Shown: positions 40,852-59,734 of the stretch, piece after piece
Layout of the letters: every line of letters starts with the position of its first letter
Position numbering within the stretch: position 1 is the first letter of the stretch
NCBI RefSeq assembly: GCF_030644225.1
Contig: NZ_CP128650.1
Location: 1,912,001 to 1,976,000, forward strand
DNA from: Selenomonas dianae
GTDB taxonomy: Bacteria; Bacillota; Negativicutes; Selenomonadales; Selenomonadaceae
Direction of reading: 5' to 3'
DNA: 64,000 nucleotides
The notes under the pieces: generated by a model
Database searches by the model: none
Told to the model about the DNA's origin: nothing
Seen by the model: only the letters and a program-made list of their open reading frames with translations
Translations under genes and position numbers: made by a program

Positions 40852-40855
40852 GCCG

Positions 40856-44963: not shown

Positions 44964-46067
44964 TCACGCTCTGCAGGAAAGAACCACGTCACAAATACGA
45001 TCCACCTCCGCCGCCTCCAGTTCCGGATAGATCGGCAGTGTCAGAACGCGGTTGGCAATATCACGCGCAATCGGGGTCTGCTCTACGTCATACTTCCCAT
45101 GGAAACATTCAAAGGTATTCGTGAGCGGGTAGAAATACTTCCTGCTGTGTACGTCGGCCCGCTCCAACGCGGCAAACACATCGTCGCGCGTACTGCCGAA
45201 CTCCTTTTCATGAAACACCACGGGGAAATAGGCGTAGTTCGGCACGACATCCGTCTGCATGGGGTTCAGCTGCACGCCGCCGATGCCTTCCAACCGCTCA
45301 CGATAGCGTTCCGCGACCGCCTTGCGCCGCGCAATATCGTCATGGACATGGCGCAGGTTGCACAGCCCCATCGCCGCACAGAACTCGTTCATCTTCGCAT
45401 TGGAGCCGATGCCGTCGACGCACTCCGCGTCGCGAATGCCAAAGTTCTTCAGGCGGTACAGCTTTCGCCCAAGCTCCTCATCGCGAAAGCACGCCGCGCC
45501 GCCCTCGATGGTGTGAAAGACCTTTGTCGCATGGAAACTGAAACACGCAACATCGCCGTACACTGCCGTACTCCGCCCCCGATAACGCACGCCAAAGGAA
45601 TGTGCGGCATCATAGATCACCTTCAGCCCATACCTGCGGGCAATGCGCTCGATCTCCTCCACACGGCAGACATTCCCATAGACATGGACGGGCATAATGG
45701 CAGACGTGCGCTCTGTAATCAGACGCTCGATCTTCGTCACATCCATCGTATAGTCCTCAGGGTCAATATCGCAGAATACCGGCTCCAGTCCGTTGCGTAC
45801 AATCGCGTGCGTCGTCGAGGCAAATGTGAACGGTGTCGTGACGACCTCGCCCGTGAGATTCATCGCCTGCAGCGAGAGTTCGAGCGCCATATGTCCGTTC
45901 GTAAAGAGCTCGACCTGTGCCACACCAAAAAAGTTCCTCAGGGCTGATTGAAACTCCTGATGCTTTGCCCCCATATTGGTCAGCCAACGCGACTGCCAAA
46001 TATCGCGGATCTCCGCGATGTACTCCTCCATCGACGGCATCGACGACCGCGTCACCATGATACTCAT
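44964..46067 (-). CDS. DegT/DnrJ/EryC1-type sugar aminotransferase
   Basis: 367 residues, PLP-dependent. Schiff-base Lys182 lies in FSFHATKVFHTIEGGA and the cofactor Asp153 in IYDAAHSFG. TNGHMALELSL near the N-terminus and a MPVHVYGN motif are typical. These enzymes aminate keto-sugars attached to nucleotides (the VioA/FdtB group makes 4-amino-4,6-dideoxy sugars). It is the last gene of the glycan operon. A non-sugar aldehyde acceptor is conceivable given the LuxC genes upstream, but is only inference. Confidence 0.9.
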   Translation of the reverse strand: MSIMVTRSSMPSMEEYIAEIRDIWQSRWLTNMGAKHQEFQSALRNFFGVAQVELFTNGHMALELSLQAMNLTGEVVTTPFTFASTTHAIVRNGLEPVFCDIDPEDYTMDVTKIERLITERTSAIMPVHVYGNVCRVEEIERIARRYGLKVIYDAAHSFGVRYRGRSTAVYGDVACFSFHATKVFHTIEGGAACFRDEELGRKLYRLKNFGIRDAECVDGIGSNAKMNEFCAAMGLCNLRHVHDDIARRKAVAERYRERLEGIGGVQLNPMQTDVVPNYAYFPVVFHEKEFGSTRDDVFAALERADVHSRKYFYPLTNTFECFHGKYDVEQTPIARDIANRVLTLPIYPELEAAEVDRICDVVLSCRA

Positions 46068-46093
46068 ACCCTGCCTCCCCGCTGCATAGATTA

Positions 46094-47710
46094 TCAGCCC
46101 TCATCCATATGCAATACGAGCGTTGTGTCAATATCGAACGCAATGCGGCAATCGTTGCGGAGAGCCTCCGACATCCCTGCAAAAACGCACAGCAGATCAC
46201 GAAATTCCGCATCGTCCCAAAGATTGGGCGTCATTGTGGCTATCCGAAGAAATTCACTTGCCATCCTCAACCAGCCCGTAACAGCCTTTCGACGTGTATC
46301 TGAATCATGGAGGTAGATATTGCGTTTCATTGCCTCTCGAATGACCAGCGCCCAACAAATGATACAACGAATGCGGCAGGGCAGCGATCGCTGTTCATTC
46401 CCGTCATGAACACGGAACTTGCTCAGCGGCTGTGGAAAATACACCATATTTCCTTGACTGAGCAGACGCAGCCACGTGGGAAAATCTGATATGAGATATT
46501 TGCCCTCTCGGCCCGAAAAGCCCAGATCATGCCCATCCAACATAAATTTCTTTTTGAGCAGTGCCGTGGTCGGTTCACCGACAAAATTAGTCAGATGTGC
46601 AAGAATATTCGCTCCAATTGTCTCGCCGCTGAATTTCGTAACCTCCTGAGCAATGGGGCTTGTTACAGGAATATCCGGCAGCTTATTTCCATCCGCATCG
46701 ATAAGTTCCCGATACGATGTAACAAAACTAATGTCGGGGTGTGCAAAGAACGCGTCCATCATGACCGCGATCTTATCCGGCATAAAGAGATCATCGTCCA
46801 TCAGCCAGTTGACATAGCGTGCATCCGCGTTGTCATAACTGCGGGCGCGCGCCCAGTTCTCAAACGCCCCGTAGGAGGGATGGTGTTCGTAGTGAATGCG
46901 CGGGTCATCCGAAAAATCCCGCCGCATCATGTCCGCCGTCTCCGTATTGTGCGAGTTGTCCGTAATGAAAATGTCCAGATTGCGATAGGTCTGTGCAAGC
47001 ACGCTCTCAAGTGCAAGGCGGAAATAGTGCGGGCGCTCAAACGTTGGAATAATGACCGAGACGAGCGGATAGATGTCCTTGGAATACGTATCGAGAAACA
47101 CCTCACGGCTCGTTTGATTATACTGAAATTCCTTCTTGCCCGCAAGCAGCCACGCCTCTTCCTGTCTGGGCACAACTGTACGATAGCCCCTCTTCCGGAA
47201 TTCGATGCACTGCGCTTCCGCAAAAAAACAATCGCCATGGAAAAGATCACTGCGCCAAGGAATATCGTACTGCGTGGCGATGAGATCACTGCTCACCGCC
47301 ATGACATCCTCCACATCGTCCGCAATATCATCTCCGTGGAAGCCGGTATCATCCATATATAAAAGCTTTCCGCAGATCGATGGCGACTCTGCAAACACCC
47401 CCGATGTCGAGAGCTGCGCCGTACCGACGAGCCCCATAATGCCGATTGCGGGATCCGCAAATACGCGCAGCATCTCCGCAAAGAAATTCAGCCGCAAGAG
47501 GATGCTCCCCGCCGCGAGATAAACTTTATACTTCGCGTCACTCCCTTCCATCGCACGCTGATAGGCGGCTGCGACATTCCCACCGGACGGTATCTCGATC
47601 AGCTCCACCGCATAGCCCTGCGGCACATCAATCGCATCGAGATACGGGCGTATGGCAGAGCCTCCACCTGCATCGCACTGGGCAATGACTGCGATTTTCC
47701 TGTCATTCAT
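46094..47710 (-). CDS. Two-domain glycosyltransferase (PF13712-like plus GT2)
   Basis: 538 residues. Residues 1-200 match the pattern of the Glyco_tranf_2_5 domain (GYAVELIEIPSGGNVAAAYQ, SDAKYKVYL, GIMGLVGTAQL in pieces, then YNQTSREVFLDTYSKD). From about 213 a GT2 catalytic domain begins (PLVSVIIPTFERPHYFRLALESV in parts, with the acidic motif MDDD near 307). It probably transfers a sugar to a lipid-linked or protein glycan at the membrane. ATG at 47710 is preferred to an in-frame TTG six bases earlier. Base composition is lower in GC than the flanks. Confidence 0.85.
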   Translation of the reverse strand: MNDRKIAVIAQCDAGGGSAIRPYLDAIDVPQGYAVELIEIPSGGNVAAAYQRAMEGSDAKYKVYLAAGSILLRLNFFAEMLRVFADPAIGIMGLVGTAQLSTSGVFAESPSICGKLLYMDDTGFHGDDIADDVEDVMAVSSDLIATQYDIPWRSDLFHGDCFFAEAQCIEFRKRGYRTVVPRQEEAWLLAGKKEFQYNQTSREVFLDTYSKDIYPLVSVIIPTFERPHYFRLALESVLAQTYRNLDIFITDNSHNTETADMMRRDFSDDPRIHYEHHPSYGAFENWARARSYDNADARYVNWLMDDDLFMPDKIAVMMDAFFAHPDISFVTSYRELIDADGNKLPDIPVTSPIAQEVTKFSGETIGANILAHLTNFVGEPTTALLKKKFMLDGHDLGFSGREGKYLISDFPTWLRLLSQGNMVYFPQPLSKFRVHDGNEQRSLPCRIRCIICWALVIREAMKRNIYLHDSDTRRKAVTGWLRMASEFLRIATMTPNLWDDAEFRDLLCVFAGMSEALRNDCRIAFDIDTTLVLHMDEG

Positions 47711-47725
47711 ACGCAACGTTCCCTT

Positions 47726-48688
47726 CTATCGCCAAAGTCCATGTCTTTGCAAAAACGCAGCCGGATCGTTCATAACATCCAGGTGCTCATGTATCTTTTC
47801 CAGCGGCCAGTCCCACCAGCGCAGATGCAGGAGGGATTCAATCATCTCGGGAGGAAAACGGTACTTGATGATCTGTGCGGGATTGCCGCCCACGATGGCG
47901 TAGGGCGGTACATCCTTCACAACGACACTGTCCGCCGCGATCACCGCACCGTCCCCGACCGTCAGAATGCCGCTGTCGCCCGCTGCCTTCAGGCGACTGC
48001 CGCGTCCGATCCAAACATCCGAACCGATATGTACCCCCCCCGCATAACTCTTATACCCCAGAGAGGAACACCAATCCTCCGCATCAAAATCCATACACCC
48101 CGGATCATAAGTAGTGATGCGGCGGTAGTCATGCTGATTGTTCAAGCCGACCTCAAGGACAACGTGCGGGCCAAAGGACGTGTAATTCCCGATGCGCACC
48201 TCCTGCACGCCGCCGCGATAGCCCCATTCGATGCGTCCGCCAAAATAACTCTTTACGCCGACCGAGACCGTACGTGAACCATACGACCAGACGCGCGGAA
48301 TCTCTGCCCGCGTCACATCCAAAAACGCCTCTTCCCGATCCGTAAGTTCCGCTTGAAGCGGCGCATAGCCGACATTTTCCGCAAAGAGGCGCGGCACGTC
48401 CAGCCCCGGCATCCGAAAAATACGCCCATCAAGCAGCGCTGCACGCGGAATCTCGGGTGCACAGCGCCGCAGATACGCAATCATCGGAAAGAGCTTCGAG
48501 CAGGAAAGCAGGACGCGATGAATTTCCACCTCTCCCCTCACGCCCTCGACGGAAAGCCCCCGTTCCGTACATCTCGCATAACCGACAATCGAAAGCGTCC
48601 CCTCCTGCTCCGCACGCCGATAACGAGGAATAAGCTCCTCGTCCAAGTCGCCGCCGAGAACGACGAGTACCTTCGTACACATGGGCAT
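47726..48688 (-). CDS. CatB/XAT-like O-acyltransferase with a G8 tract in the coding region
   Basis: 320 residues. The N-terminal 120 residues are not recognised. Then comes a left-handed beta-helix acyltransferase of the xenobiotic (CatB/VatD) type, with catalytic-type His186 in LNNQHDYRRITTYDP and hexapeptide turns VHIGSDVWIGRGS and VIAADSVVVKDVPPYAIVGGNPAQ. It is expected to acetylate, or otherwise acylate, a sugar hydroxyl with acyl-CoA. Codons 216-219 (A-G-G-V) include eight consecutive Gs at 48041-48034. In this sequence the frame is intact. Confidence 0.83.
   Translation of the reverse strand: MPMCTKVLVVLGGDLDEELIPRYRRAEQEGTLSIVGYARCTERGLSVEGVRGEVEIHRVLLSCSKLFPMIAYLRRCAPEIPRAALLDGRIFRMPGLDVPRLFAENVGYAPLQAELTDREEAFLDVTRAEIPRVWSYGSRTVSVGVKSYFGGRIEWGYRGGVQEVRIGNYTSFGPHVVLEVGLNNQHDYRRITTYDPGCMDFDAEDWCSSLGYKSYAGGVHIGSDVWIGRGSRLKAAGDSGILTVGDGAVIAADSVVVKDVPPYAIVGGNPAQIIKYRFPPEMIESLLHLRWWDWPLEKIHEHLDVMNDPAAFLQRHGLWR
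48034..48041 (-). repeat. G8 homopolymer inside the O-acyltransferase gene
   Basis: Eight Gs on the coding strand across codons 216-219. Loss or gain of one would truncate the protein within its hexapeptide domain. Confidence 0.85.
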
Positions 48689-48700
48689 ATCCCCCTCCGT

Positions 48701-49906
48701 TCAAACCGCCCAGATCACACGGCTCATCGTCCGAATGAGATCAACACCGTCCCAGACGAGCGCAAAGTCCATCGTACGTCCCATGGGTACAATGCGATCC
48801 ACGCCGGCAGGGCGCATGGCAAGCACCTCCCGCAAGAGGCTGTCCCGCTCCACGCCATAATACGAAAGCGTCTGGCACGAAATACCGCACAGCGGTCGTA
48901 TCTCTGCAAGTTCCTGCGCCCGATATTCGATAAAGAAACCGCTTCCCGCCTTGTAGGCAGCAAGTTCCTCCGTCAGCTTTGCCACACAGACGCGCGTAAT
49001 AAGGTTGTCCTCCATCGGAACCTGCCGCGCCTCAAAGCACGCACCAAGCCGATAGAGCTGCGTCAGCTTATCCACCGCCTGAACACCTTGCAGCGTGTAG
49101 CGATCCTTCACAAGCGTATGCAGGGTGCTCCAAAACACCTCCTGCGCCGCCTTTACCTTCTCTGCTGCACCGAGCCAGATAATAAAATGTGGCGCGGTAC
49201 AGGCATTTTGGTCGCTAAGATAGGTATCGTTGTAAAAGTCCTGTGTAATGCGCTCCTTGTCCGCTGCCACAAGATAGGCATCGGCGTCAAGAACGGCGAG
49301 CGAATGACGGTCGGCAAACGTGATTTCATGCGCACGCGGAGCAAGGGGCGAGCGGCGTATCTCTTCAATCGTCGCATCGCCGCCCCATATGACACGGGTC
49401 TGACACATACGTGAATAGTGTTCGTTCACCTCCTGCGCGTGCCCGTAACGGACAAAGAGGAAGTACGGCAGGAGTGCAGGAAAGTCCACCAGCGTTTCCG
49501 CGAAAATCCGACAGAGAACATCGACCTGCGGGAAGGCCTTTGACGGCAGACGCACAATGCTCGCGTTTCCCGCGAGAAATGCCGCAAGACATGAGTAGGC
49601 AAAGTTCACCGCCACATTCGAGGGTGCAATGTGAAAGACAATGCCGCGCCCAATCCTCTTTTTCTCCGCCTCATAGACGCGCTGCATTTGGCGAAGCGCG
49701 GCGGGACGGCACCAAAAGCCGAGTGTTACAACATCGGGGTACGCCCTTGCCGCCGTATCCGCAAGAATCCGTGCCGAGAGTGCGGAGAGGAACGCACACG
49801 CCGCCTCCGAAAAAATCGGAAGCGGGCGCACGTCCGCCATCTGCGCCTCGCTTTCTGCGCTGCCGAGCACATAGTCCACACCCTCAAAACGCTGCCGCAT
49901 AGGCAT
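48701..49906 (-). CDS. LuxC-like acyl reductase, copy 1
   Basis: 401 residues, LuxC family of the aldehyde dehydrogenase superfamily. The nucleotide-loop region is GRGIVFHIAPSNVAVNFAYS, and the catalytic-type Cys236 lies in SDQNACTAPHF. In luminous bacteria LuxC reduces an acyl group received from LuxE to fatty aldehyde with NADPH. The last 100 residues (IVPMGRTMDFALVWDGVDLI) match copy 2 closely. The start overlaps LuxE copy 1 by 23 bp. High GC, like the host. There is no luciferase in the window, so the product aldehyde, if formed, serves another purpose. Confidence 0.85.
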   Translation of the reverse strand: MPMRQRFEGVDYVLGSAESEAQMADVRPLPIFSEAACAFLSALSARILADTAARAYPDVVTLGFWCRPAALRQMQRVYEAEKKRIGRGIVFHIAPSNVAVNFAYSCLAAFLAGNASIVRLPSKAFPQVDVLCRIFAETLVDFPALLPYFLFVRYGHAQEVNEHYSRMCQTRVIWGGDATIEEIRRSPLAPRAHEITFADRHSLAVLDADAYLVAADKERITQDFYNDTYLSDQNACTAPHFIIWLGAAEKVKAAQEVFWSTLHTLVKDRYTLQGVQAVDKLTQLYRLGACFEARQVPMEDNLITRVCVAKLTEELAAYKAGSGFFIEYRAQELAEIRPLCGISCQTLSYYGVERDSLLREVLAMRPAGVDRIVPMGRTMDFALVWDGVDLIRTMSRVIWAV

Positions 49907-50963
49907 CGCTGCACCCCCTCAGTTCCGCCTCTTTCAGCCTGCCGAGCACCTTGAAATACTTCCCTTTACGTCCGCATGGGCAGTCGTCCTCACCGAGCAG
50001 AACGCCCTCGTCCTCCGTTAGGAGCGCGTGTCCCGGGTACGACTCCGGCAGGAGCGAGACCACCTCGATGATGCCGCGCTCGCCGAAATCCGCAGACGAA
50101 AAGTCAAACGGCCGGCGCACAATGATGTCGGCGTACGTGCTTGTGTGGAGATGTCCCTCCGCGCATTCGAGATGGATGCAGCCCGTCTGTTCCACCATGC
50201 CGTAGTAGTCCGCAACATCAAGATCGCCGCAGACCGTACGCAGTGCAGCGCGAAACGCCGCAGGCGTAACCGCCTCGGAGGCGAGCCTTTTCCAGCCGCC
50301 ACCATGAATCAATATGGCATTCGAGAGATCAAGCCGTTCCCCCGCCGCCCGCAAAGACTTGTAAAAATGCTGCCACACCATAAAGGTAAAGCCGAAGATC
50401 AAAATGCGCCGCCCCGCGTGCTCTGCGAGAAATGCGCGAACGGCATCGAGCTGCAGCTCCATCGCATCATTCAACGCGTAGAGCTTCTTGCGCCCGAAAA
50501 TCGAAAAACCGAGGATCCCCGCCCCGCGTGCCGAGAACATCGCACGGTTCTTGACCACCGAAGGGCAGTCGATGATAAGCATCGGCATACGGCTTTTTCC
50601 CGTCCATGCGGAAACGATACGCACAAGAGTTTTCTGCTGGTTCGCCGCTGTTTTGCGGTCGAGGAAAATACGTGATACCTGCTGCCCCGTTGTCCCCGAC
50701 GAGGTCATCGTCTTGAACACATCCTCCTCCGCCACACTCCGCAGCTCCATCTCCTTGAAGAGGCGCACAGGCAAAAACGGAACATCCTCCACCGAGCGAA
50801 CATCCGCAGCAGAAAAGCCGACCGCCTCCATCATCCGCGCATAGGGCGCACAGTGCGCCCTGTGGTGCTCCGTCAGGCGCAGCAGCCCCCCGCACAGGAG
50901 CGCCTGTTTGTCCGTGCGCCCCACGCCGAACGGCGGCAGGGCAAGCACATCCTCATACGTCAT
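49884..50963 (-). CDS. LuxE-like acyl-protein synthetase, copy 1
   Basis: 359 residues, adenylate-forming superfamily, LuxE type. The activation loop is SSGTTGQQ near 89-96, the YYGMVEQTGC core follows, and the CPCGRKGKY motif is present. A C-terminal Cys351 (RGCSDAYAAAF) is in the position of the Vibrio LuxE cysteine that carries the acyl group. LuxE activates an acid with ATP and passes the acyl to LuxC. The ATG at 50963 overlaps the ligase gene by 11 bp (TGACGTATGA junction). It is 23 bp overlapped with LuxC copy 1. Confidence 0.85.
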   Translation of the reverse strand: MTYEDVLALPPFGVGRTDKQALLCGGLLRLTEHHRAHCAPYARMMEAVGFSAADVRSVEDVPFLPVRLFKEMELRSVAEEDVFKTMTSSGTTGQQVSRIFLDRKTAANQQKTLVRIVSAWTGKSRMPMLIIDCPSVVKNRAMFSARGAGILGFSIFGRKKLYALNDAMELQLDAVRAFLAEHAGRRILIFGFTFMVWQHFYKSLRAAGERLDLSNAILIHGGGWKRLASEAVTPAAFRAALRTVCGDLDVADYYGMVEQTGCIHLECAEGHLHTSTYADIIVRRPFDFSSADFGERGIIEVVSLLPESYPGHALLTEDEGVLLGEDDCPCGRKGKYFKVLGRLKEAELRGCSDAYAAAF

Positions 50964-52365
50964 AATACTGCTCCAATGCGCGATAGACCGTCTTGCCCGA
51001 AGCATTCTTCGGGATCTCCGCGATATACTTCGCCGTGAGCGCCGTATGGTGCAGGCCGAGCTTTGCGCTCAAAAACGGCACAATCGCGGGAACAAGCGCC
51101 TCCTGCGTCACAAAGATATGGAGGTGATCGTCAACGCCCGCACACGCGACCTCGACCTCACCAAACTGCCGGCGCAGGATATGCTCAACCTCCTGCAAAT
51201 TCGTCCGCTTGCCGAACATCTTCAAAAAGCGCCGCTTGCGACCGACGATGGTATAGTACCCATCCGCATCGCGGCGGGCGAGATCGCCCGTCTCATAGCG
51301 GCCATGACGCTCGTCGCCCCGAGCGAGATCCGCACCGCCCTCCGCATAGCCGAGCGTAACATTTGCGCCATAGTAGACCAGCTCGCCGACGGTATCCACC
51401 GCCGTGATCTCCGCGCCCACCTCGTCGATGAGCGCGAACCTGCCGCCCGGGATCGCAACGCCCATCGCCCCGACCTTTTCAAGGGCATCCTGCGGCGGCA
51501 GATACCCCATGCGTGCCGTTGCTTCTGCCGCACCGTACATCACGACAAACGACTTGCCCTCCCGAGCGGCAAACTCTGCAAACTGCGCATGAAGTTCAGG
51601 GTCGAGCTTGCCGCCCGCCTGCGTCAGCGTGCGGAGCGCGGGGAGATCCATACGGAAGAAGCGGAGCCGCTTCAGCATCGCATAGGTATAGGGAACACCG
51701 GAAAGATTTGTAACTTTTTTTTCCCGCATAAGCTGCCAAAAACTGCGGTCAAAGAGTGTTTTGTCCGTCACAACAACCGACGCGTCGACCGCAAGGTGTG
51801 TATTGAGAACAGAAAGCCCATAGACATAGTGAAGCGGCAAATTCGTCACAGCACGTTCATCTTCGTGAAGATCCAAATACTTCACAATGGACGCTGTATT
51901 TGCCTTGAGATTATCATAGCTCTGCCGCACCAGCTTCGGGCTGCCCGTCGAGCCCGATGTCGTCATGAGGAGTGCGAGATCGTCATGCAGGGGAAAGGGA
52001 TGCTGCTCCGCAAGATCGTAAAGGACACTACCCGCTATGTGTAAAGTCTGCGTATAACGATCCAAAAAGTCGAAATGCGCTTCCTCCGCAAAAATATAGG
52101 TCGGTAAATACTTCTCTAAAAGGTTCTGAAACAATTCCTCATCCAAATCCTTATCGACCATAACGGGAACAATCCCATGGTTGATAAAGCCCACATATGC
52201 CGCAATGGATGCAGGCGTATTGCTGCACACCAAAAAAACCAACGAGCGCGTTGGTACCATCCCCGCAATCTTTTCCGATATATCAAACAACTTGTTGTAT
52301 GCCCACACTTCATTTTCCATAAGGAGTGCGGGCGTCTCGGCAAAAGATTTCAGATCAAAAAACAC
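50953..52365 (-). CDS. Acyl-AMP ligase (AMP-dependent synthetase family)
   Basis: 470 residues. A3 motif TTSGSTGSPK is at 135-144, A5 lies in MYGAAEATARMGYL, A7 in YETGDLARRDADGYYTIVGRKR, and the A10 lysine in PKNASGKTVYR. The enzyme adenylates a carboxylic acid and loads it onto CoA or, more likely here, the phosphopantetheine of the carrier protein encoded 11 bp upstream. Length is shorter than in fatty acyl-CoA ligases (about 550), closer to acyl-ACP ligases. An A8 run (51715-51722) lies in the coding strand. Confidence 0.87.
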   Translation of the reverse strand: MFFDLKSFAETPALLMENEVWAYNKLFDISEKIAGMVPTRSLVFLVCSNTPASIAAYVGFINHGIVPVMVDKDLDEELFQNLLEKYLPTYIFAEEAHFDFLDRYTQTLHIAGSVLYDLAEQHPFPLHDDLALLMTTSGSTGSPKLVRQSYDNLKANTASIVKYLDLHEDERAVTNLPLHYVYGLSVLNTHLAVDASVVVTDKTLFDRSFWQLMREKKVTNLSGVPYTYAMLKRLRFFRMDLPALRTLTQAGGKLDPELHAQFAEFAAREGKSFVVMYGAAEATARMGYLPPQDALEKVGAMGVAIPGGRFALIDEVGAEITAVDTVGELVYYGANVTLGYAEGGADLARGDERHGRYETGDLARRDADGYYTIVGRKRRFLKMFGKRTNLQEVEHILRRQFGEVEVACAGVDDHLHIFVTQEALVPAIVPFLSAKLGLHHTALTAKYIAEIPKNASGKTVYRALEQYYDV

Positions 52366-52376
52366 GGCACAGCCTC

Positions 52377-52616
52377 TTAAAATGTGATGTTGTAATTCTT
52401 CGACAGGATCTCTTTCCCCCGTTCAAAAGAATTAAAGTCGATGATATCATCGGTATCCATCATGATATCAAAGGCATCCTCGATGGCAGCCACCAATTCC
52501 ATGTGTCCGACCGAATCCCATGCACTGATGGACTGATATGTGAGTCCCTCCACATCGTCCTTGGAAACGCCAAGGCTGTCAGAAAATATCTGCGTGTACT
52601 TCTCCAAATTCGTCAT
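52377..52616 (-). CDS. Acyl carrier protein
   Basis: 79 residues, four-helix carrier. The phosphopantetheine serine is Ser35 in DSVGHMEL. The acidic helix after it (IEDAFDIMMDTDDI) is typical of the face that docks with partner enzymes. It is dedicated to this operon rather than to fatty acid synthesis, as it lies between the acyl-AMP ligase and LuxC copy 2. Confidence 0.92.
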   Translation of the reverse strand: MTNLEKYTQIFSDSLGVSKDDVEGLTYQSISAWDSVGHMELVAAIEDAFDIMMDTDDIIDFNSFERGKEILSKNYNITF

Positions 52617-52640
52617 GATATTGCTCCCTCTCTGTATACG

Positions 52641-53837
52641 TTATTGATTGTTGATCTTTCTGGAAAGTGTCAACGGCATATCATAGCCGTCCCAAACAAA
52701 GGACAGATCAAGGCTGTGTCCCATGGGAACGATGCGATCCCCCCCTCGCAGCCCCTGTTGGAAGATGATCTCCTTGATTTTATCATGCAGATGATCCCCC
52801 AGATACGTAACGGTCTGGCACCGCTTGCCAAGAATGCACGCCAGTTCATCCAAGTTCCCTAAACTATATTCGAGAAAGTACCCACAATTCCCTTTATAAT
52901 CCATCACATCCTCGTACAGTTCCGGCAACTCGATCCGCACCAACGCATTATTCTGCCGAATCTCCTTGATGCCGGGACAGGCAGCCGCAAGCACTGCCGT
53001 CTGCAGCAGTTTTTCCGACCCGCTGATATCGCTCAGTTGATACCCTTGATGTACTTTTTCTTGAAGACTCTCCCAAAAAAGTTTTTTTGCCTGATCGATG
53101 CAATTTCCTGTCCATAGAACCAGCCGCGTTGAGCTGCAAGCGTTCTGATCAGAATAGTAGGTATCGAGATAAAAATCGCGCGCAACGATCTGTGGTTCCT
53201 TCTGCAAATACGTATCCGCGTCAATGACTGCAATCGAATACCGATCCGCAAACCCCAACTCCACGCATCGGGATTGTGTGGTGTTTCTTTTTATATCTTC
53301 GATTGTTTTATCGCCGCCCCATATCATTCTGAGATCACAGAGTGATGACAGCACGTGCGTCGCCGCGTTGTCATGTGCATATCGAACAATGCAGATATAT
53401 GGATGCAGTTTCTGAAACTCCTCCTGCAATAGTGTGTTGATCGTCTCACACAGGAGATCCACCTGCTCAAACTGCTTATCGGATACACGGATCACAGACG
53501 CATTGCCGGCGGTCAATGCATAGACAAGGGAAACTGCAAACTGCACGGGAATATTCGACGGCGCGATATGGAACGCCATCCCCCAGCCAATTCTTCTGCC
53601 AGAAGCTTCATATTTGGCGGCCTCTTTTTTTATGGACGCCTTGCGAAGCCAAAAAGCAAAGGCAGCGATGTCCCCATATGCCTTCGCTCGGGGATCACGA
53701 AGCAGCACCTCGGATAATCTACCCAGAAAGGATACGACATCTTCTGAAAACATCGGCAGTGCCCGCGTCTTTTCCATATTGCAGAGGACATCCATATTTC
53801 CGACCAAAAAGTCGATGTCCCTATATACGTGCTCCAT
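52641..53837 (-). CDS. LuxC-like acyl reductase, copy 2
   Basis: 398 residues, homologous along its whole length to copy 1. The motifs are GRRIGWGMAFHIAPSNIPVQF in pieces, catalytic-type Cys234 in SDQNACSST, and the C-terminal RIVPMGHSLDLSFVWDGYD. The sequence is clearly more AT-rich than copy 1, and the two have diverged considerably, so this is not a recent duplication. The start overlaps LuxE copy 2 by 17 bp, the same layout as in the first pair. Confidence 0.85.
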   Translation of the reverse strand: MEHVYRDIDFLVGNMDVLCNMEKTRALPMFSEDVVSFLGRLSEVLLRDPRAKAYGDIAAFAFWLRKASIKKEAAKYEASGRRIGWGMAFHIAPSNIPVQFAVSLVYALTAGNASVIRVSDKQFEQVDLLCETINTLLQEEFQKLHPYICIVRYAHDNAATHVLSSLCDLRMIWGGDKTIEDIKRNTTQSRCVELGFADRYSIAVIDADTYLQKEPQIVARDFYLDTYYSDQNACSSTRLVLWTGNCIDQAKKLFWESLQEKVHQGYQLSDISGSEKLLQTAVLAAACPGIKEIRQNNALVRIELPELYEDVMDYKGNCGYFLEYSLGNLDELACILGKRCQTVTYLGDHLHDKIKEIIFQQGLRGGDRIVPMGHSLDLSFVWDGYDMPLTLSRKINNQ

Positions 53838-54897
53838 AGGTATCGCTGCACCCCCTTATTTCCGCCTGCTCCACCCTGCCTAGGATACGGATGTATTTCC
53901 CTTTTCTTCCGCACGGGCAGTCATCCTCCCCCTCGATGATACCTTCATCCTCCGTGAGAATCGAGTGCCCCGGGTACGAATGCGGCAGCGTAGAGAGGAG
54001 CTGAATAAAGCCCTTCTCGCCCATGGCACAAGGCGAAAAATCACGATATCGACGTATGATTACATCCGAGTAGATGCTGGCATGAAGATGCCCGTATTCG
54101 CACTCCGCATAGATGCAGCCCGTCTGCTCTGCCATTCCATAGTGATCCACATAATGTTTTATTCCACAGACAGCCTGTCCCATGTTCTTGAAATCTTCAT
54201 TGGAGATTTTCAGATTGACTAACTTTTTCCAACCGCCTGCTGTAAGCAGATAACCGTTCGACAAATCGGCAGTTCTGCCCGCTTGTTTTAATCGCCGGAA
54301 AAGATGCTGCCAAACCATAAAGGTGAATCCAAAAATGATGAATGGCTCGGCTCCGTAGGCTTGAATAAAGTCATCCAGCACATCTTCCTTGAGCTGCATC
54401 TGTTCATCCAGTGCAAAAATCATACGTCTGGCGGCAAACTCCAACCCCATGATCGTTGCACCTCTCGTGGTAAAGTTTCGTCGATCCCTAATCACCGCAT
54501 CCGAATCAATCACGAGCATCGGCAGCCTACGATTCCCGATAAAATCCCCCAGCAGTCGGAGCAGTACCTTTTGCTGTAAAACAGCTGTTTCCCGATCCAG
54601 ATAAATCCTCGACTGTTTTTGACCGCTTGTTCCCGATGACATCATCACCTTGAAAACATCGTCATCCGGGATGCTCTTCATCTGCAACTCTTTGAATGCA
54701 CGAATGGGAAGAAACGGCACGTTCTCCAGTGTTTTGACACCAGCCGGATCATAGCCGATGGCATCCAAATACCTTTGGTACGGAACGCAGCGATGCCGAT
54801 GCCATTCGGTCAATTTCCGCATGGCAGACAATAAAAGCTTTTCCTTTTCAGCTTTCGGTAATGCATACGGGGCAAGCTCGTGAAAGACTTCTAGCAT
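53821..54897 (-). CDS. LuxE-like acyl-protein synthetase, copy 2
   Basis: 358 residues, homologous to copy 1. The activation loop is SSGTSGQKQ, the HYGMAEQTGC core and CPCGRKGKY follow, and a C-terminal Cys350 (RGCSDTYGARI) keeps the acyl-carrying position. AT-rich like LuxC copy 2. It follows the NeuB-like gene by 15 bp. Confidence 0.85.
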   Translation of the reverse strand: MLEVFHELAPYALPKAEKEKLLLSAMRKLTEWHRHRCVPYQRYLDAIGYDPAGVKTLENVPFLPIRAFKELQMKSIPDDDVFKVMMSSGTSGQKQSRIYLDRETAVLQQKVLLRLLGDFIGNRRLPMLVIDSDAVIRDRRNFTTRGATIMGLEFAARRMIFALDEQMQLKEDVLDDFIQAYGAEPFIIFGFTFMVWQHLFRRLKQAGRTADLSNGYLLTAGGWKKLVNLKISNEDFKNMGQAVCGIKHYVDHYGMAEQTGCIYAECEYGHLHASIYSDVIIRRYRDFSPCAMGEKGFIQLLSTLPHSYPGHSILTEDEGIIEGEDDCPCGRKGKYIRILGRVEQAEIRGCSDTYGARI

Positions 54898-54912
54898 ATC
54901 TCCATCCCTGCA

Positions 54913-55914
54913 CTATTCCAGATCATCCGGCAGAAGCATCTCATCGGCTTCCATATCGCGTTTCACTTTCTTGCCAATCACACGGGCAAACTCATTGGGA
55001 GGTATCCCGTCCCCCGGCCGTTTTGCGTCAAGATCCTCCATCGAAAGCACCTGCCCTGCAGGAATGTGCTTCGCGGCAACAATGCTCCTTCGCATCTTTC
55101 CCCGCTGTGCAAGCTCCTCTTCCGTCACACTTCGTTCATAAGACCCCAGCGCCGCCGCGACGTTTCGACATTCCCGCACCAACTTCTCCATTTGTTCCGG
55201 CTCGGTCGCCATCTGATTATCCCAGCCGATCACACTGCTGTCGAGGGTAAAATGCTTTTCGATCATCACCGCGCCAAGTGCCGTTGCGGCACACGCGGCT
55301 TCACTTCCCATGGTATGATCCGAATATCCGACGCTGCATTCCGGGAACTCCGCTTTCAGCATACGCATATTATTCAGATGAATATGTTCATGCGCCACGG
55401 GATACAGTGAAACACAATGGAGAATACAGATCTGATGATTGCCTCTGCCCTCAATCGCACGAACAGCCGCCCTGATTTCATCAAGCGTTGCCATCCCCGT
55501 AGAGAGTACAATCGGAACCATGCGGCCTGCAATATACTCCAAAAAAGGGATGTTGTTGATGTCCATGGATGCGATCTTGATATACGGAACGTCACACGCA
55601 TCAACCAGGAGATCAACCTCACTGCGGGAATAAGGTGTGGATGCGAAATCAATGCCGCTCTCCCTGCAATAGGAGGACAGTTCCACGAGCGCCTCCGGCA
55701 AAAGCGCAAAGCCCTTCACCATGCGCCGCGCGATCGGGTTCTTTGTGTAATATGTCTTGCTGTAGAGAGAAGTCTCCGTCCATGACTGGAATTTGACCGC
55801 ATCGCAGCCACACGCCTTCGCCGCATCGATCATTTTTTTTGCGACTTCAACCTTTCCCCTGTGGCTGGAATTCAGCTCAGCCACAATATACGGGCACGCT
55901 TTATCCAAGTACAT
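54913..55914 (-). CDS. NeuB-family synthase (sialic/nonulosonic acid synthase type)
   Basis: 333 residues. A TIM-barrel NeuB domain (about 1-265) has YIVAELNSSHRG, DAVKFQSW, FASTPYSR, IKIASMDINN, STGMATLDEI, YPVAHEHIHL, GYSDHT and the metal/PEP-site EKHF. A C-terminal antifreeze-like SAF domain follows (RRSIVAAKHIPAGQVL). The family condenses phosphoenolpyruvate with the open-chain aldehyde of a hexosamine to give a nonulosonic acid. No NeuA (CMP transferase) or NeuC/epimerase lies in the window, so the aldehyde partner and the onward step are open. Confidence 0.88.
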   Translation of the reverse strand: MYLDKACPYIVAELNSSHRGKVEVAKKMIDAAKACGCDAVKFQSWTETSLYSKTYYTKNPIARRMVKGFALLPEALVELSSYCRESGIDFASTPYSRSEVDLLVDACDVPYIKIASMDINNIPFLEYIAGRMVPIVLSTGMATLDEIRAAVRAIEGRGNHQICILHCVSLYPVAHEHIHLNNMRMLKAEFPECSVGYSDHTMGSEAACAATALGAVMIEKHFTLDSSVIGWDNQMATEPEQMEKLVRECRNVAAALGSYERSVTEEELAQRGKMRRSIVAAKHIPAGQVLSMEDLDAKRPGDGIPPNEFARVIGKKVKRDMEADEMLLPDDLE

Positions 55915-55915
55915 T

Positions 55916-56707
55916 TCACAGGCCTCCTTCGCTTAAATCCAGTTTCATCGTCACCCCCAATGCTTGAGATTTTCGTCCTCCATCAACTACAATATTTTGC
56001 CCGGTAACGAACGATGCCATATCCGATGCCAAGAACAAAATGGCATTTGCAACCTCTTCCGGAGCCCCCTGCCGTTTCAATGGGGTCTCTTGAAGTATTT
56101 TCTCCTTGAGCGCATCGCTGCGCGCGTGCCACATATCCGTATCAATAAACCCGGGAGAAACCGCATTCACCCTGATGCCATACTTCCCGAGTTCGAGTGC
56201 CATCGTCTGCGTCGAAAAAAGCACCGCAGCTTTGCTGCTGCCGTACGCGAGCCCGCCTTCCTCCGCCTCCATCCCGGCGACCGAGGCTACATTGATGATC
56301 GCCCCCGCCTTATTTCTCATCATATACCGTGATACAAGCTGAGCCAACTGCACCTGTGACATAAAATTTGTGTGCATACAGTCTTCAATCGTTTTGATTG
56401 CGGTCATCGGGAATAATTGTTCCACGGAGATTCCCGCATTATTCACCAGAATGTCAATGCGCTTTTGTTTGTCTCCGATGGTTTTGATGGCTTTTTTTAC
56501 CGCGTCTGCATCTGCGACATCAAAATAGAACGGGTAAATTTCCGTTGCATACTGCTCCGATAATGTCTTAATTTTTTTTTCAAATTCTTCCGTCTGCCGT
56601 CTTGCGCAAGCCCAAATGCAGGCGTGATGTTCGGCAAATTTTTGTACCGTTGCCCCCCCGATGCCCCGATTCGCACCTGTGATGACCGCAATTTTACCGT
56701 TCAGCAT
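55916..56707 (-). CDS. Short-chain reductase, FabG-like
   Basis: 263 residues. TGANRGIG is at 10-17, NNAG at 89-92, and the catalytic triad Ser142, Tyr155, Lys159 lies in ASVAG...YGSSK. The C-terminal GQNIVVDGG is typical of 3-oxoacyl reductases. In this operon it could reduce a beta-keto acyl-carrier intermediate, or a keto-sugar. It overlaps the dehydratase gene by 14 bp. The coding strand contains an A9 run (56572-56580) at codons 43-45, E-K-K-I. Confidence 0.87.
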   Translation of the reverse strand: MLNGKIAVITGANRGIGGATVQKFAEHHACIWACARRQTEEFEKKIKTLSEQYATEIYPFYFDVADADAVKKAIKTIGDKQKRIDILVNNAGISVEQLFPMTAIKTIEDCMHTNFMSQVQLAQLVSRYMMRNKAGAIINVASVAGMEAEEGGLAYGSSKAAVLFSTQTMALELGKYGIRVNAVSPGFIDTDMWHARSDALKEKILQETPLKRQGAPEEVANAILFLASDMASFVTGQNIVVDGGRKSQALGVTMKLDLSEGGL

Positions 56708-57185
56708 TTTTTTCCACTCTCTTCGGTCGATATTTGTAAAATACAGAGGGAATCAAAAGTGTCACTTCTGCCTCACAAGCAAGCTCACCATCCACATAGC
56801 CTCTGGACACACCTTTCCCGATTCCTCTCGTATACGATTTTACTTCTGCAACAATGTCCAGTCGATCCCCAGGGCGGATTTTTTTAATGAATTTGACTTT
56901 ACATTCTACACCTTCAATATTGATATCCTCGACCCCATCCATCGTATTGAGTGCAATCGTCAGCATTTGACACAGTGCTTCCATCTGAACGGCACCGGGC
57001 ACAAGAGGCTTCCCCGGATAATGTATGGGGAAAAACCACTCATTATTCGTCAGATTTTTATATCCCTTGGCATATTTCCCAGGCACACACTCCGTTACCC
57101 GATCAATATAAAGAAACGGATAGCGATTTGGCTCGTATTTCTGGAGTTCATCACTATCGAATGATAAGATTTTTTCTTCTGACAT
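56694..57185 (-). CDS. Hot-dog 3-hydroxyacyl-carrier dehydratase, FabZ-like
   Basis: 163 residues, with the FabZ-type NRYPFLYIDRV start and the active-site block FFPIHYPGKPLVPGAVQMEAL. His55 and Glu69 correspond to the catalytic pair. The wide hydrophobic tunnel cannot be judged. It is expected to dehydrate a 3-hydroxyacyl thioester on the operon's carrier protein, next to the FabG-like reductase. An isomerase or thioester hydrolase role is less likely. Confidence 0.85.
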   Translation of the reverse strand: MSEEKILSFDSDELQKYEPNRYPFLYIDRVTECVPGKYAKGYKNLTNNEWFFPIHYPGKPLVPGAVQMEALCQMLTIALNTMDGVEDINIEGVECKVKFIKKIRPGDRLDIVAEVKSYTRGIGKGVSRGYVDGELACEAEVTLLIPSVFYKYRPKRVEKNAER

Positions 57186-57207
57186 ACCGATATAACCTCA
57201 CTTCCAT

Positions 57208-57864
57208 CTAGTCCCGAAAAACCCTATGCTCGTCATTGCCCTTTGTTACTCTGGCAGGATTCCCAAGAACAGTACATCCATCCTCCACTGATCTGAAAAC
57301 CATAGAGCCCATTCCGACAATGACGTTATCTCCTAAATTTGTGCGTTCCTTCATCGAGGAGTTCAGACCGATAAACGTATTTTCACCGACGGTAGAGCCG
57401 CCGCCGACCGTTGCCATCGGACATACAACGGTATTCTTTTTCAGATGTGCATCATGTCCGACGACCACATGGAAGCCCAAAAAGCAATTTTCTTCTAAGA
57501 CAGCATTGGATGATACGATGGAATGCGCATTGACGATACACCCCGGTGCAATCTGCGCTGTAGGTGAAACTATGGCAGAAGGGTCAACGAGGGTTGCCAA
57601 CTTATAGCCGCTTTCCTCAATGCGTTTCAGCAGAAAAGCACGCGCCGCAGGTTCACCGACGGCAATAACAAATTCAAATTCTTCCTGTGCGATCGTTTCA
57701 CACGAAGAAAAGTGAATCCGTTCCGTCCCATAATACGACACTTCTTCTTCAAAGTCATCAATGAGGTAAATTTTCGAATACCTGTGGGATACTGCATTCA
57801 CGCGCTCTGCCAAGTCATAGATCTCAATGGCAGCACCGCTTGCTCCATATATAAATAAAATCAT
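57208..57864 (-). CDS. NeuD/PglD-like sugar acyltransferase (hexapeptide)
   Basis: 218 residues. The N-terminal Rossmann-like domain (GASGAAIEIYDL) is followed by a left-handed beta-helix of hexapeptide repeats (IVSPTAQIAPGCIVNAHSIV, VVVGHDAHLKKN, catalytic-type His in GHDAH). It acylates an amino or hydroxyl group of a nucleotide sugar. It is the first gene of the glycan operon and has only a weak ribosome site. Upstream lies a 199-bp region with a hairpin. Confidence 0.86.
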   Translation of the reverse strand: MILFIYGASGAAIEIYDLAERVNAVSHRYSKIYLIDDFEEEVSYYGTERIHFSSCETIAQEEFEFVIAVGEPAARAFLLKRIEESGYKLATLVDPSAIVSPTAQIAPGCIVNAHSIVSSNAVLEENCFLGFHVVVGHDAHLKKNTVVCPMATVGGGSTVGENTFIGLNSSMKERTNLGDNVIVGMGSMVFRSVEDGCTVLGNPARVTKGNDEHRVFRD

Positions 57865-58063: not shown

Positions 58064-59734
58064 TCAAAACAGCCCCGTAATCACGCCGTCCTCGGTGATG
58101 TCCATGCCCATTGCAGCGGGAACTTTCGGCAGCCCCGGCATGGTGAGGACATTCCCCGTGAGGGCGACGACGAAGCCCGCACCGCAGGAGGCACGCAGTT
58201 CGCGCACGGTGATGCGGAAACCTGCGGGACGGCCGAGGAGCGCAGGGTTGTCCGAGAGCGAATACTGGGTCTTTGCCATGCAGACGGGTGTTTCCGTCAT
58301 GCCGAGCGTCTCCATCTCCGCCATCTGCTTCTGCGCCGCATCCGTAAAGTCCACGCCGTCCGCGCCGTAGATTTCCTTTGCAATCGTTTCGATCTTCTCC
58401 GCAATGGACTTCTTCGCATCATAGATCGGGTGGAAGTCGGCGGGCTTTCCGAGAGCATCCATGACGGCATCCGCAAGTGCAAGTCCGCCCTCTCCGCCCT
58501 TCGCCCAGACCTCGGAGCGCACGGCGGTCACACCGAGACGCGCACAGAGTTCGGTGAGGAGTGCCAGCTCCGCCTCGGTGTCCGTCGGGAATACGTTGAC
58601 GGCGACGACGGCGGGCACACCGTACTTGCCGACGTTCTCAATGTGCTTTTCGAGATTCGCCGCGCCGCGCCGGAGCGCGTCGAGATTTTCCGTACCGAGC
58701 GCGTCCTTCGGCACGCCGCCGTTCATCTTGAGCGCACGCACGGTGGCGACAATGACGACGGCATTGGGCGAGAGCCCCGCAAGGCGGCACTTGATGTCAA
58801 AGAATTTCTCGGCGCCGAGATCTGCGCCGAAGCCCGCCTCCGTCACGACGTAGTCGACACATTTGAGAGCGTATTTTGTCGCCATAACGCTGCTGCATCC
58901 GTGCGCGATGTTCGCGAATGGCCCGCCGTGGATGAAGGCGGGCGTGCCGCCGATGGTCTGCACGAGGTTCGGCTTGATGGCATCCTTGAAGAGGAGTGTG
59001 AGCGCACCCGTTGCGCCGAGTTCGTCCGCATGGACGGGACGGCCGCCGCGCGTCCATCCGATGAGGATGCGCCCGAGACGGCGCTTCATGTCCGTAAGGC
59101 CATCCGAAAGGCAGAGGATCGCCATCATCTCCGAGGCGACCGTAATGTCAAAGCCCGACTCGCGCGGAATGCCGTGCACGCGCCCCCCCAGCCCCGTGAC
59201 GACATGGCGCAGGGCGCGGTCGTTGATGTCGAGGACACGCTTCCACACGATACGGTTCACATCGAGGTCGAGCGCATTTCCCTGAAAGATGTGGTTGTCG
59301 ATCAGCGCCGCAAGGAGGTTGTGCGCCGTGGTGATGGCGTGGAAGTCCCCTGTGAAGTGGAGGTTGATGTCCTCCATCGGCACGACCTGCGCATAGCCGC
59401 CGCCCGCCGCGCCGCCCTTCATGCCGAAGCACGGACCGAGGGACGGCTCGCGCAGGGCGACGACGGTCTTTTTGCCCTGCCTGTGCAGAGCGTCGGCAAG
59501 TCCGACGCTCGTCGTGGTCTTGCCCTCGCCCGCAGGAGTCGGGTTGATCGCCGTGACGAGGATGAGCTTGCCGTTTGCCCCGTTTGCCCCCGCAAGTGCG
59601 GCGGGGGTCAGCTTTGCCTTGTACCTGCCGTACGGCTCGATGTGTTCCTCAGCGATTCCAAGCGTCCCCGCGATCTCTGCGATGGGGCGCAGCTGTGCCG
59701 CGCGTGCGATCTCGACATCCGATTTCATTGTCAT
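58064..59734 (-). CDS. fhs: Formate-tetrahydrofolate ligase
   Basis: 556 residues, the usual length. P-loop [14 protein letters not shown] is at about 66-79, with [24 protein letters not shown] and the FTGDFHAI motif typical of FTHFS. It makes 10-formyl-tetrahydrofolate from formate and ATP. The start overlaps the folD stop by four bases (ATGA), so the pair is translationally coupled. GGGGAGA precedes the ATG. Confidence 0.97.

Follow-up and report, generated by a model that had tools for sequence, protein, structure and literature searches.

A LuxE/LuxC operon with a distinct NeuB-type synthase in Selenomonas dianae: a candidate route to a short polar chain on a surface glycan

Why should a bacterium keep acyl-activating and acyl-reducing enzymes of the LuxE and LuxC families in one operon with a synthase of the NeuB family? 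The question is raised by thirteen minus-strand genes (44964-57864) in a 64,000-nucleotide stretch of the Selenomonas dianae genome (NZ_CP128650.1, positions 1,912,001 to 1,976,000; hereafter the window, from whose first letter coordinates are counted). The answer preferred here, to which we would give nearly an even chance, is that LuxE and LuxC make an aldehyde, that a distinct "NSSH" subtype of NeuB adds phosphoenolpyruvate (PEP) to it, and that the product is tailored on an acyl carrier protein (ACP) and transferred to an amino sugar of a surface glycan. It is argued mainly from an exchange, newly observed here, of a split transketolase for the NSSH-type NeuB in loci that encode LuxE.

All of the open reading frames (ORFs) were confirmed (13/13), in a host genome of 2.39 Mb on one contig, and the operon is sited between fhs and valS. 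From neuD to degT the genes are:

57208..57864, minus strand: NeuD/PglD-type hexapeptide acyltransferase, 218 residues (PF17836, PF00132; TIGR03570 at 161.3 bits, cut-off 160.8)
56694..57185, minus strand: FabZ-like hot-dog dehydratase, 163 residues (PF07977, 73.5 bits; below the FabZ equivalog cut-offs, 106.8 vs 113 and 98 vs 155)
55916..56707, minus strand: FabG-like short-chain dehydrogenase/reductase (SDR), 263 residues (PF13561, 213 bits)
54913..55914, minus strand: NeuB-family PEP-condensing synthase with SAF domain, NSSH subtype, 333 residues (PF03102, PF08666; separate clade)
53821..54897, minus strand: LuxE-type acyl-protein synthetase, pair 1, 358 residues (PF04443, 161 bits; cysteine in G-C-S)
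52641..53837, minus strand: LuxC-type acyl reductase, pair 1, 398 residues (PF05893, 67 bits; cysteine in DQNAC)
52377..52616, minus strand: ACP, 79 residues (PF00550 at 20.4 bits, just below the cut-off of 20.8; phosphopantetheine-type motif D-S-V-G-H-M)
50953..52365, minus strand: adenosine monophosphate (AMP)-forming acyl (acyl-ACP) ligase, 470 residues, GTG start (PF00501, 146 bits)
49884..51005, minus strand: LuxE-type acyl-protein synthetase, pair 2, 373 residues (PF04443, 153 bits; LuxE alignment); its true start may be an internal Met at residue 15
48701..49906, minus strand: LuxC-type acyl reductase, pair 2, 401 residues (PF05893, 80 bits; LuxC alignment)
47726..48688, minus strand: CatB/Vat/ApmA-like hexapeptide acyltransferase, 320 residues (NCBIfam Vat/CatB at 99-105 bits, below cut-offs; match to ApmA of the PDB over residues 217-317)
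46094..47716, minus strand: two-domain glycosyltransferase of family GT2, 540 residues, TTG start (PF13712, 158 bits; PF00535, 61 bits)
44964..46067, minus strand: DegT-type sugar aminotransferase, closest to DesI, which acts on deoxythymidine diphosphate (dTDP)-4-keto-6-deoxyglucose, 367 residues (PF01041, 338 bits; best NCBIfam match TIGR04427 DesI, 289 vs cut-off 650; best PDB match 2po3, likewise DesI)

The 12 junctions, in the same order, measure 22, -14, 1, 15, -17, 24, 11, -53, -23, 12, 9 and 26 bp, four of the 12 being overlaps. Pfam gathering cut-offs are reached for NeuD/PglD, FabA-type hot-dog, SDR, NeuB with SAF, both LuxE, both LuxC, AMP-binding, hexapeptide, GT2 and DegT domains. 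Together with the NCBIfam matches, and with the ACP just short of its cut-off, this bears out a preliminary description of the locus, made from the sequence, as thirteen packed, overlapping genes of these families. Its further phrase, a "complete acyl toolkit", fits in that the named acyl families are present but is overstated, because no ketosynthase family was matched in any of the 13 proteins. The same proteins gave no match to the LuxD thioesterase or the LuxAB luciferase, the luciferase search being confined to the operon, and the N-terminal ~155 residues of the CatB-like protein have no match among the Pfam and NCBIfam models.

How the NeuB-type protein relates to its acyl neighbours can be read from related loci. 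A scan of GTDB genomes with a LuxE alignment gave at least 586 relatives, of which the best 80 loci (L050-L129) were analysed; they come from Bacillota, Pseudomonadota, Spirochaetota, Synergistota, Thermodesulfobacteriota and Melainabacteria and include Bacteroidales records. Seventy-nine were used (L064 lacks a called LuxE ORF), with one LuxE anchor per locus and NeuB split by motif, and modules were counted within 9 kb of LuxE in the 61 loci of at least 15 kb, the 18 shorter ones being left out; the loci are akin to one another, and many come from metagenome bins. Directly downstream of LuxE, on the same strand, stands LuxC in 71/79 loci, and most of the 80 have an ACP of 52-77% identity in the neighbourhood of LuxE. 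A gene of thioesterase-like (PF00975 for the protein of locus L164) or metallo-beta-lactamase fold stands no more than two genes upstream of LuxE in 25/79, which suggests, by analogy, a LuxD-like role.

Both halves of a split transketolase occur in 28 of the 61 long loci, the NSSH-type NeuB in 12, neither in 21 and both in none (Fisher p 2.2e-4, kinship ignored); nor do the two meet at any distance inside the fetched stretches. Enzymes dependent on thiamine diphosphate (ThDP) were found in 13/61 loci, eight times with NSSH-NeuB (Fisher p 1.5e-4, kinship ignored) and never with both transketolase halves. The ThDP loci counted as lacking NSSH-NeuB are L052, L060, L083, L107 and L112, L060 having one 9.2 kb away, past the 9 kb limit. 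At least one of the transketolase pair, NSSH-NeuB or a ThDP gene is present in 45/61, and these partners are close, NSSH-NeuB lying within 6 kb of LuxE in 14/15 cases and the transketolase protein TktN in 31/38. A looser count, with any NeuB and LuxE not anchored singly, gives transketolase in 29 loci, NeuB in 15 and both in two of 61. Canonical NeuB does meet the transketolase pair (L084, L114) whereas NSSH-NeuB never does (0/61), so that the two NeuB types behave differently. In L083 and L107, whose stretches hold no NSSH-NeuB, an HMGL-type protein has 4-hydroxy-2-oxovalerate aldolase as its best NCBIfam match, below cut-off.

Transketolase and NeuB both use an aldehyde acceptor, and NeuB and 4-hydroxy-2-oxovalerate aldolase give the same class of product. 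Since an aldehyde acceptor is the main property that the exchanged enzymes share, the aldehyde made by LuxC is taken as the substrate of these modules. Since members of the NSSH clade and transketolase take turns in these cassettes, it is improbable that this NeuB is a bystander sugar enzyme, the preliminary description having listed it with the sugar enzymes. Among the other recurring neighbours are a radical SAM/SPASM protein beside transketolase and hot-dog genes (L039:3198-4247 and others; 6/61 long loci) and an L-lactate/malate dehydrogenase-type gene (L062:12211-13296 and others; 9/61), the latter hinting at a 2-hydroxy acid.

In the mechanism proposed here, pair 1 would activate a carboxylic acid on the cysteine of LuxE and reduce it to an aldehyde on LuxC, as in the chemistry of the lux homologues, following which the NSSH-type NeuB would add the three-carbon pyruvyl unit of PEP, giving a 4-hydroxy-2-oxo acid. 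The AMP-forming ligase could then load this acid on the ACP, where the SDR and hot-dog enzymes may reduce or dehydrate it, and the chain would either serve as acyl donor for the NeuD- or CatB-like transferase or be reduced again, by pair 2, to an aldehyde. As judged from family membership, the acceptor would be a 4-amino-6-deoxy sugar made by DegT, probably dTDP-linked and assembled by the GT2 enzyme. The predicted end product is a carbon chain, short, polar and not of fatty type, that is attached to an amino sugar of lipopolysaccharide (LPS), another polysaccharide or flagellin. We infer both the hand-over of the aldehyde to NeuB and the product. Extended to all of the loci, the scheme would become a widespread modular pathway leading from ordinary acids to sugar-like chains, a generalization that is possible but against which we lean slightly, in which repeated acid-to-aldehyde reduction by LuxE and LuxC is followed by addition of a C2 ketol unit (split transketolase) or a C3 pyruvyl unit (the NeuB subfamily, aldolase) and by ACP-bound tailoring.

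What, then, distinguishes this NeuB from its relatives? A tree of 27 rows (26 different), in which the program flags some of the references as long-branched, unites the 18 rows of cassette NeuBs in a single clade with a support of 100/100, apart from SpsE, PseI and meningococcal NeuB; this distinct clade is newly described here. All members but one read E-x-N-[ST]-S-H instead of E-x-G-x-N-H, the window protein having ELNSSH and no canonical E-x-[GS]-x-N-H motif. At meningococcal position 27 all 18 rows carry Asn, against Gly or Ser in the others, and at position 29 Ser replaces Asn in 17/18. The window protein falls below the NCBIfam equivalogs (NeuB, 327.2 vs 399.65 bits; PseI, 263.1 vs 340.25) and keeps the PEP and metal residues of the NeuB domain, and the clade retains K53, T110, K129, S132, S154, S213, H215, H236 and R314. 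The roles of K53, S132, S154 and H236 are presumed, partly from passages of PMC7371886, while T110, K129, S213, H215 and R314 are site residues of meningococcal NeuB according to passages of PMC6795526. Of the site-lining residues given in those passages (PMC6795526), E25, Q55, T110, K129, Y186, S213, H215, E234 and R314 are kept in the clade, whereas F112 is changed to Y, N184 to S (A in one row) and F288 to K, N or R, the F288 position being variable in the other NeuBs of the tree as well.

Searches that started from NeuB lead back to the cassette. Two sets of genomes, from the families of Roseburia faecis (G491; 299 genomes) and Treponema bryantii (G794; 245 genomes), yielded NSSH-NeuBs newly found without LuxE as query, and both (2/2; G708 and G1010) lie in LuxE-ligase-ACP loci. 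In the first set four NeuBs pass 1e-100, one of them the NSSH type of G708, in an operon like that of the window, and the other three carry the canonical motif, their fetched stretches showing no LuxE (L166 being close to a contig end). In the second, two are NSSH by score, G795 (known via LuxE) and G1010 (new), both in cassettes, and some NeuB homologue at 1e-20 is present in 223/245 genomes. In a phylum sample of 398 genomes LuxE exceeds 200 bits in six, the NSSH type appears by score only in the window and, the motif having been read in 30 loci, the other NeuB loci all have E-x-G-[VI]-N-H (29/29); as a reverse test of NSSH-NeuB against LuxE this sample is weak.

The FlaB glycan of Treponema denticola reportedly carries a 2-methoxy-4,5,6-trihydroxyhexanoyl group, a structure compatible with a condensation of PEP and glyceraldehyde. 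Only its mass is confirmed, the passages of a treponeme study (PMC9481697) giving a glycan of 450.2 Da. NSSH-NeuB as its source is unlikely in most treponemes, the type being found in 2/245 genomes with the motif read in 30 loci. Eight loci of this family (L194-L201) show a motif E-x-G-T-[SA]-H that is neither canonical nor NSSH. The genome of the window encodes a second NeuB homologue of 294 residues (L048:7950-11085; C1 ~2061949-2065084), shorter than full NeuB-SAF, which sits with a KdsC-like HAD phosphatase, an acetolactate-synthase-like ThDP enzyme and a gene that resembles, by eye, those for cytidine diphosphate-sugar dehydratases; perhaps this is another NeuB-ThDP set for building chains.

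The retained residues also suit a different model, close to that of the preliminary description, in which NeuB makes a true nonulosonate-like sugar while ACP, ligase, LuxE and LuxC make, in a parallel branch, an unrelated short acyl or aldehyde substituent. We consider it rather unlikely, though the strongest of the rivals. The sugar-site residues E25, Q55, Y186 and R314 are conserved, as is D247, which we take to belong with them, and NeuD is narrowly above the NeuD/PglB/VioB cut-off. Moreover, a canonical NeuB stands near LuxE, beside the cassette, in G164 and G102, and pse genes occur in the Aeromonas group II islands described in parts of PMC7874193. Against such a branch, no match to the NeuC, PseB, PseG or PseH families was found in the operon, DegT is under the PseC cut-off, and the exclusion of NSSH-NeuB from transketolase loci does not extend to canonical NeuB. 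Nor was a cytidine monophosphate (CMP)-nonulosonate synthetase of family PF02348 found in the window's genome, a lack newly noted here; the usual activation of nonulosonates is missing, because PF02348 matches only KdsB and, weakly, GlmU. A non-homologous cytidylyltransferase is mentioned in passages of PMC7371886, and such an enzyme is possible in this genome. On the acceptor side, a dTDP-glucose 4,6-dehydratase is present in the genome above cut-off (485 vs 365), which, with DegT closest to DesI (below cut-off), points to a dTDP-4-amino-4,6-dideoxy sugar. Next to kdsB lies an ORF of 839 residues (L049:6283-8802) that resembles, by eye, a fusion of KdtA (WaaA) and LpxK.

Are the LuxE and LuxC proteins competent, and why are there two pairs? 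In the alignments the RGCSD of the window LuxE meets the GCS of LuxE in PDB 7xc6, and the DQNAC of LuxC meets the DQQAC of LuxC in the same entry, each with its cysteine in place; we take the C-terminal cysteine of LuxE to be the acyl-accepting site and that of LuxC to be catalytic. The cysteine is kept in 98/98 LuxC rows and in 98/104 LuxE rows, the other six being gapped there. A direct hand-over from LuxE to LuxC is supported by fusions of the two (L083:10001-12358, 785 residues; L224:2925-5243, 772 residues). The two pairs have separate origins, a further new observation. In the trees of both proteins pair 1 groups with G004, G008 and G708, after which LuxE1 is joined by the extra pairs of L068 and L107, and LuxC1 first by L040 and L041 and then by L068, L083 and L107; pair 2 groups with those Selenomonas loci whose proximal blocks are of other kinds. 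In the window pair 1 directly follows NeuB, and the extra pair of L068 and L107 directly follows the transketolase protein TktC. This grouping and these positions suggest that pair 1 has moved together with the carbon-carbon module, and pair 2 together with the ACP-ligase block.

LuxC and LuxE of luminous bacteria act on tetradecanoyl chains, and a long-chain fatty acyl or fatty aldehyde that lipidates the glycan might be expected here as well. Cassettes of this kind in flagellin islands have been reported since about 2015 as "fatty acid synthesis", with a liposugar proposed and no product named in the parts of PMC4875605 and PMC7874193 concerned. For the present operon a fatty chain is improbable. 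Its proteins lie far below the NCBIfam lux equivalogs (LuxE, 61 and 48 bits vs 550; LuxC, 39 and 30 vs 750), and the chains made by transketolase, NeuB and aldolase-like partners are polar. Ketosynthases (KAS) are scarce as well: besides the lack of any in the operon, KAS III is present in 8/61 long loci and 10/80 loci, by a profile built from KAS III only, and a motif scan for KAS I/II was negative in all 80, although the host fatty acid synthase could still supply chains. Fatty acid synthesis was set aside as first choice on this ground, and the "beta-modified acyl chain" that the preliminary description had derived from a complete enzyme set is not supported.

How the operon came to its site, and whether its genes belong together, can be judged from its relatives. 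It is flanked by:

42167..44830, minus strand: valS, housekeeping flank outside the system, valine-tRNA ligase by eye (orthologues 94-95% identical in G004, G006 and G011)
58064..59734, minus strand: fhs, housekeeping flank outside the system, formyl-tetrahydrofolate ligase by eye (present in 14/14 congeners, its own genome included)

Farther out (39508-41046) an O-antigen-ligase-type protein (PF04932) adjoins a protein with Rex-type domains (PF06971, PF02629).

Read outward from fhs in the 14 congeners, the interval to valS holds the cassette in four (G000, G004, G006, G011), other cargo of ~7-12 kb in three (G002, G012, G013) and less than ~3 kb in seven, these distances being estimates from valS starts. 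LuxC is found in 6/14 congeners, G005 and G008 carrying the cassette at other sites. The Selenomonas loci, in which genes were named from matches or from likeness to matched proteins, share a distal block of ligase, LuxE2 and LuxC2, then GT2, DegT and, in some, the CatB-like gene, while the proximal block varies: neuB with LuxE1/LuxC1 in G000, G004 and G008 (the last split over two contigs), KAS III, a ThDP enzyme and neuB in G006, KAS III-like protein and split transketolase in G011, and radical SAM protein and split transketolase in G005. G029, of another genus, resembles G006 without GT2 at that place. That most loci keep the distal block while the proximal one changes would also suit a route in which DegT transaminates the LuxE/LuxC aldehyde to an amine, which the CatB-like enzyme then acylates, so that an amino-alcohol-like appendage and not an acyl group results; DegT-type genes within 9 kb of LuxE in 28/61 long loci are in line with this. 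We hold it to be a minor possibility, a sugar acceptor being simpler in view of the closeness of DegT to DesI, a dTDP-sugar aminotransferase, and of the dTDP-glucose dehydratase.

A site of such variable content invites the thought that the genes are chance or hitch-hiking neighbours, the more so as G+C content is uneven (0.529 in the operon vs 0.582 in the window, with an internal step from 0.43-0.54 between neuD and the ligase to 0.52-0.60 between luxE2 and degT). This is highly improbable in view of the overlapping genes and the regular succession of LuxE and LuxC, and it is largely refuted by an operon outside the genus that keeps the order. G708, of another family (locus L164), has the order neuD-hotdog-SDR-neuB-luxE-luxC-ACP-ligase-thioesterase-luxE-luxC-degT, 43-73% identical gene by gene to the window; it differs by an added thioesterase and by the absence there of the CatB-like and GT2 genes. 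Because nearly the same gene order recurs in it, the arrangement is more than chance. The search for conserved neighbourhoods, proposed in the preliminary description for the Negativicutes and here run beyond them, thus upheld its view that sugar and acyl genes belong together, since they recur jointly in G708 and as partners in the 79 LuxE loci.

Several findings weigh against the preferred sequence of aldehyde formation and PEP addition. Within 9 kb 16/61 loci (15/61 at any distance) have no transketolase pair, NSSH-NeuB or ThDP gene, so that the core must also work alone or the search profiles missed its partner. With loci of shared ancestry, many of them from metagenome bins, the Fisher values overstate independence. 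Exclusion between modules is not complete, since L107 holds a TktC, truncated at the end of its stretch, besides a ThDP gene, and L065, L114 and L129 have two transketolase pairs and one LuxE/LuxC pair, so there is no one-to-one rule. Transketolase could instead charge the ACP with a C2 unit, in the manner of quinocarcin-type pathways. The window is without a thioesterase, and PF02348 is above cut-off in 9/10 genomes behind other cassette loci, including four with NSSH-NeuB, some of Lachnospiraceae type. As E25 and R314 belong to the sugar-binding site of meningococcal NeuB and are kept, a sugar-like substrate is possible, and the loop with N74, said in passages of PMC7371886 to determine specificity, fell in a gap of the NeuB alignment.

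Where the product goes is suggested by the surroundings of the loci. The preliminary description had named flagellin glycans among the destinations, which is supported as a possibility by published islands, seen in part, and by G708, in which an operon of nearly the same make-up as that of the window converges on a neighbouring flagellin gene (L164:3-1331; PF00669, PF00700), a new observation in another family. The window itself has fhs and valS as neighbours, is not a flagellar locus and contains no flagellin motif; the motif scan of loci was positive only in L164 and L169 (~16 kb from LuxE) and in 0/80 of L050-L129, and L119 (Kosakonia) adjoins fliA and fliZ by eye. Neighbours of polysaccharide type are more frequent, with an ArnC-type glycosyltransferase in 21/61 and an rmlB-like gene in 11/61 long loci. 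As the flagellin motif is rare in the loci and not present in the window, surface glycans other than that of flagellin are no less likely, and on these neighbourhoods the destination is probably a surface glycan, flagellin in some hosts and LPS or another polysaccharide in others.

If the proposed scheme is true, it describes an aldehyde-based assembly line for carbon chains, unlike fatty acid or polyketide synthesis and unlike nucleotide-sugar chemistry, with a NeuB subfamily that acts on a non-sugar aldehyde made by LuxC. It would explain surface-glycan modifications across Bacillota, Pseudomonadota, Spirochaetota, Synergistota, Thermodesulfobacteriota and Melainabacteria, and the exchange of transketolase and NeuB gives a testable chemical idea, an aldehyde acceptor with a C2 or C3 donor. 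Speculatively, it may bear on the 102 Da moiety of Aeromonas AH-3 flagellin, left unidentified in the passages of PMC7874193, where the AH-3 island has the cassette.

The system can finally be set beside those already known. With the cispentacin-type set (AmcB, AmcH, AmcE) the window ACP, ligase and hot-dog protein match at 21.8, 80.9 and 38.2 bits, far below the cut-offs of 80, 370 and 140, and the resemblance is probably general family likeness only. With the LuxC-LuxD-LuxE reductase of bioluminescence (PDB 7xc6) it has in common the LuxE and LuxC sequences and both cysteines, relatives adding a thioesterase at the LuxD-like place; it differs in having no luciferase or thioesterase in the operon, scores far under the equivalogs, and polar-chain and sugar enzymes as partners. 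The NeuB protein shares NeuB and SAF domains and the PEP and metal residues with NeuB, PseI and SpsE, and is set apart from them by its clade and motif, its changes at F112, N184 and F288, its scores below cut-offs and the lack of a NeuA-type partner in the genome.

The closest likeness is to the flagellin glycosylation islands. The core of ACP, AMP-forming ligase, LuxE and LuxC is a widespread cassette, already in print, its function unexplained there: passages of PMC7874193 describe ACP-FabG-AMP ligase-LuxE-LuxC in Aeromonas group II islands, those of PMC4875605 LuxE in 73 strains with Enterobacteriaceae flagellin islands, and those of PMC7575072 and PMC4522980 the cassette with tktA-tktB near fliC in Dickeya zeae, whose island adds VioA (DegT-type), a hexapeptide acyltransferase, a glycosyltransferase and the split transketolase. 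The earlier statement that no described pathway has exactly this set holds in the open-licence literature searched, while the set of ACP, reductase, ligase, LuxE and LuxC, found all together in the window as in the islands, had been published. The operon of S. dianae is thus a cassette of a known kind that differs by its NSSH-type NeuB and second LuxE/LuxC pair, which stand in place of transketolase, and by its seat at a non-flagellar locus between fhs and valS.

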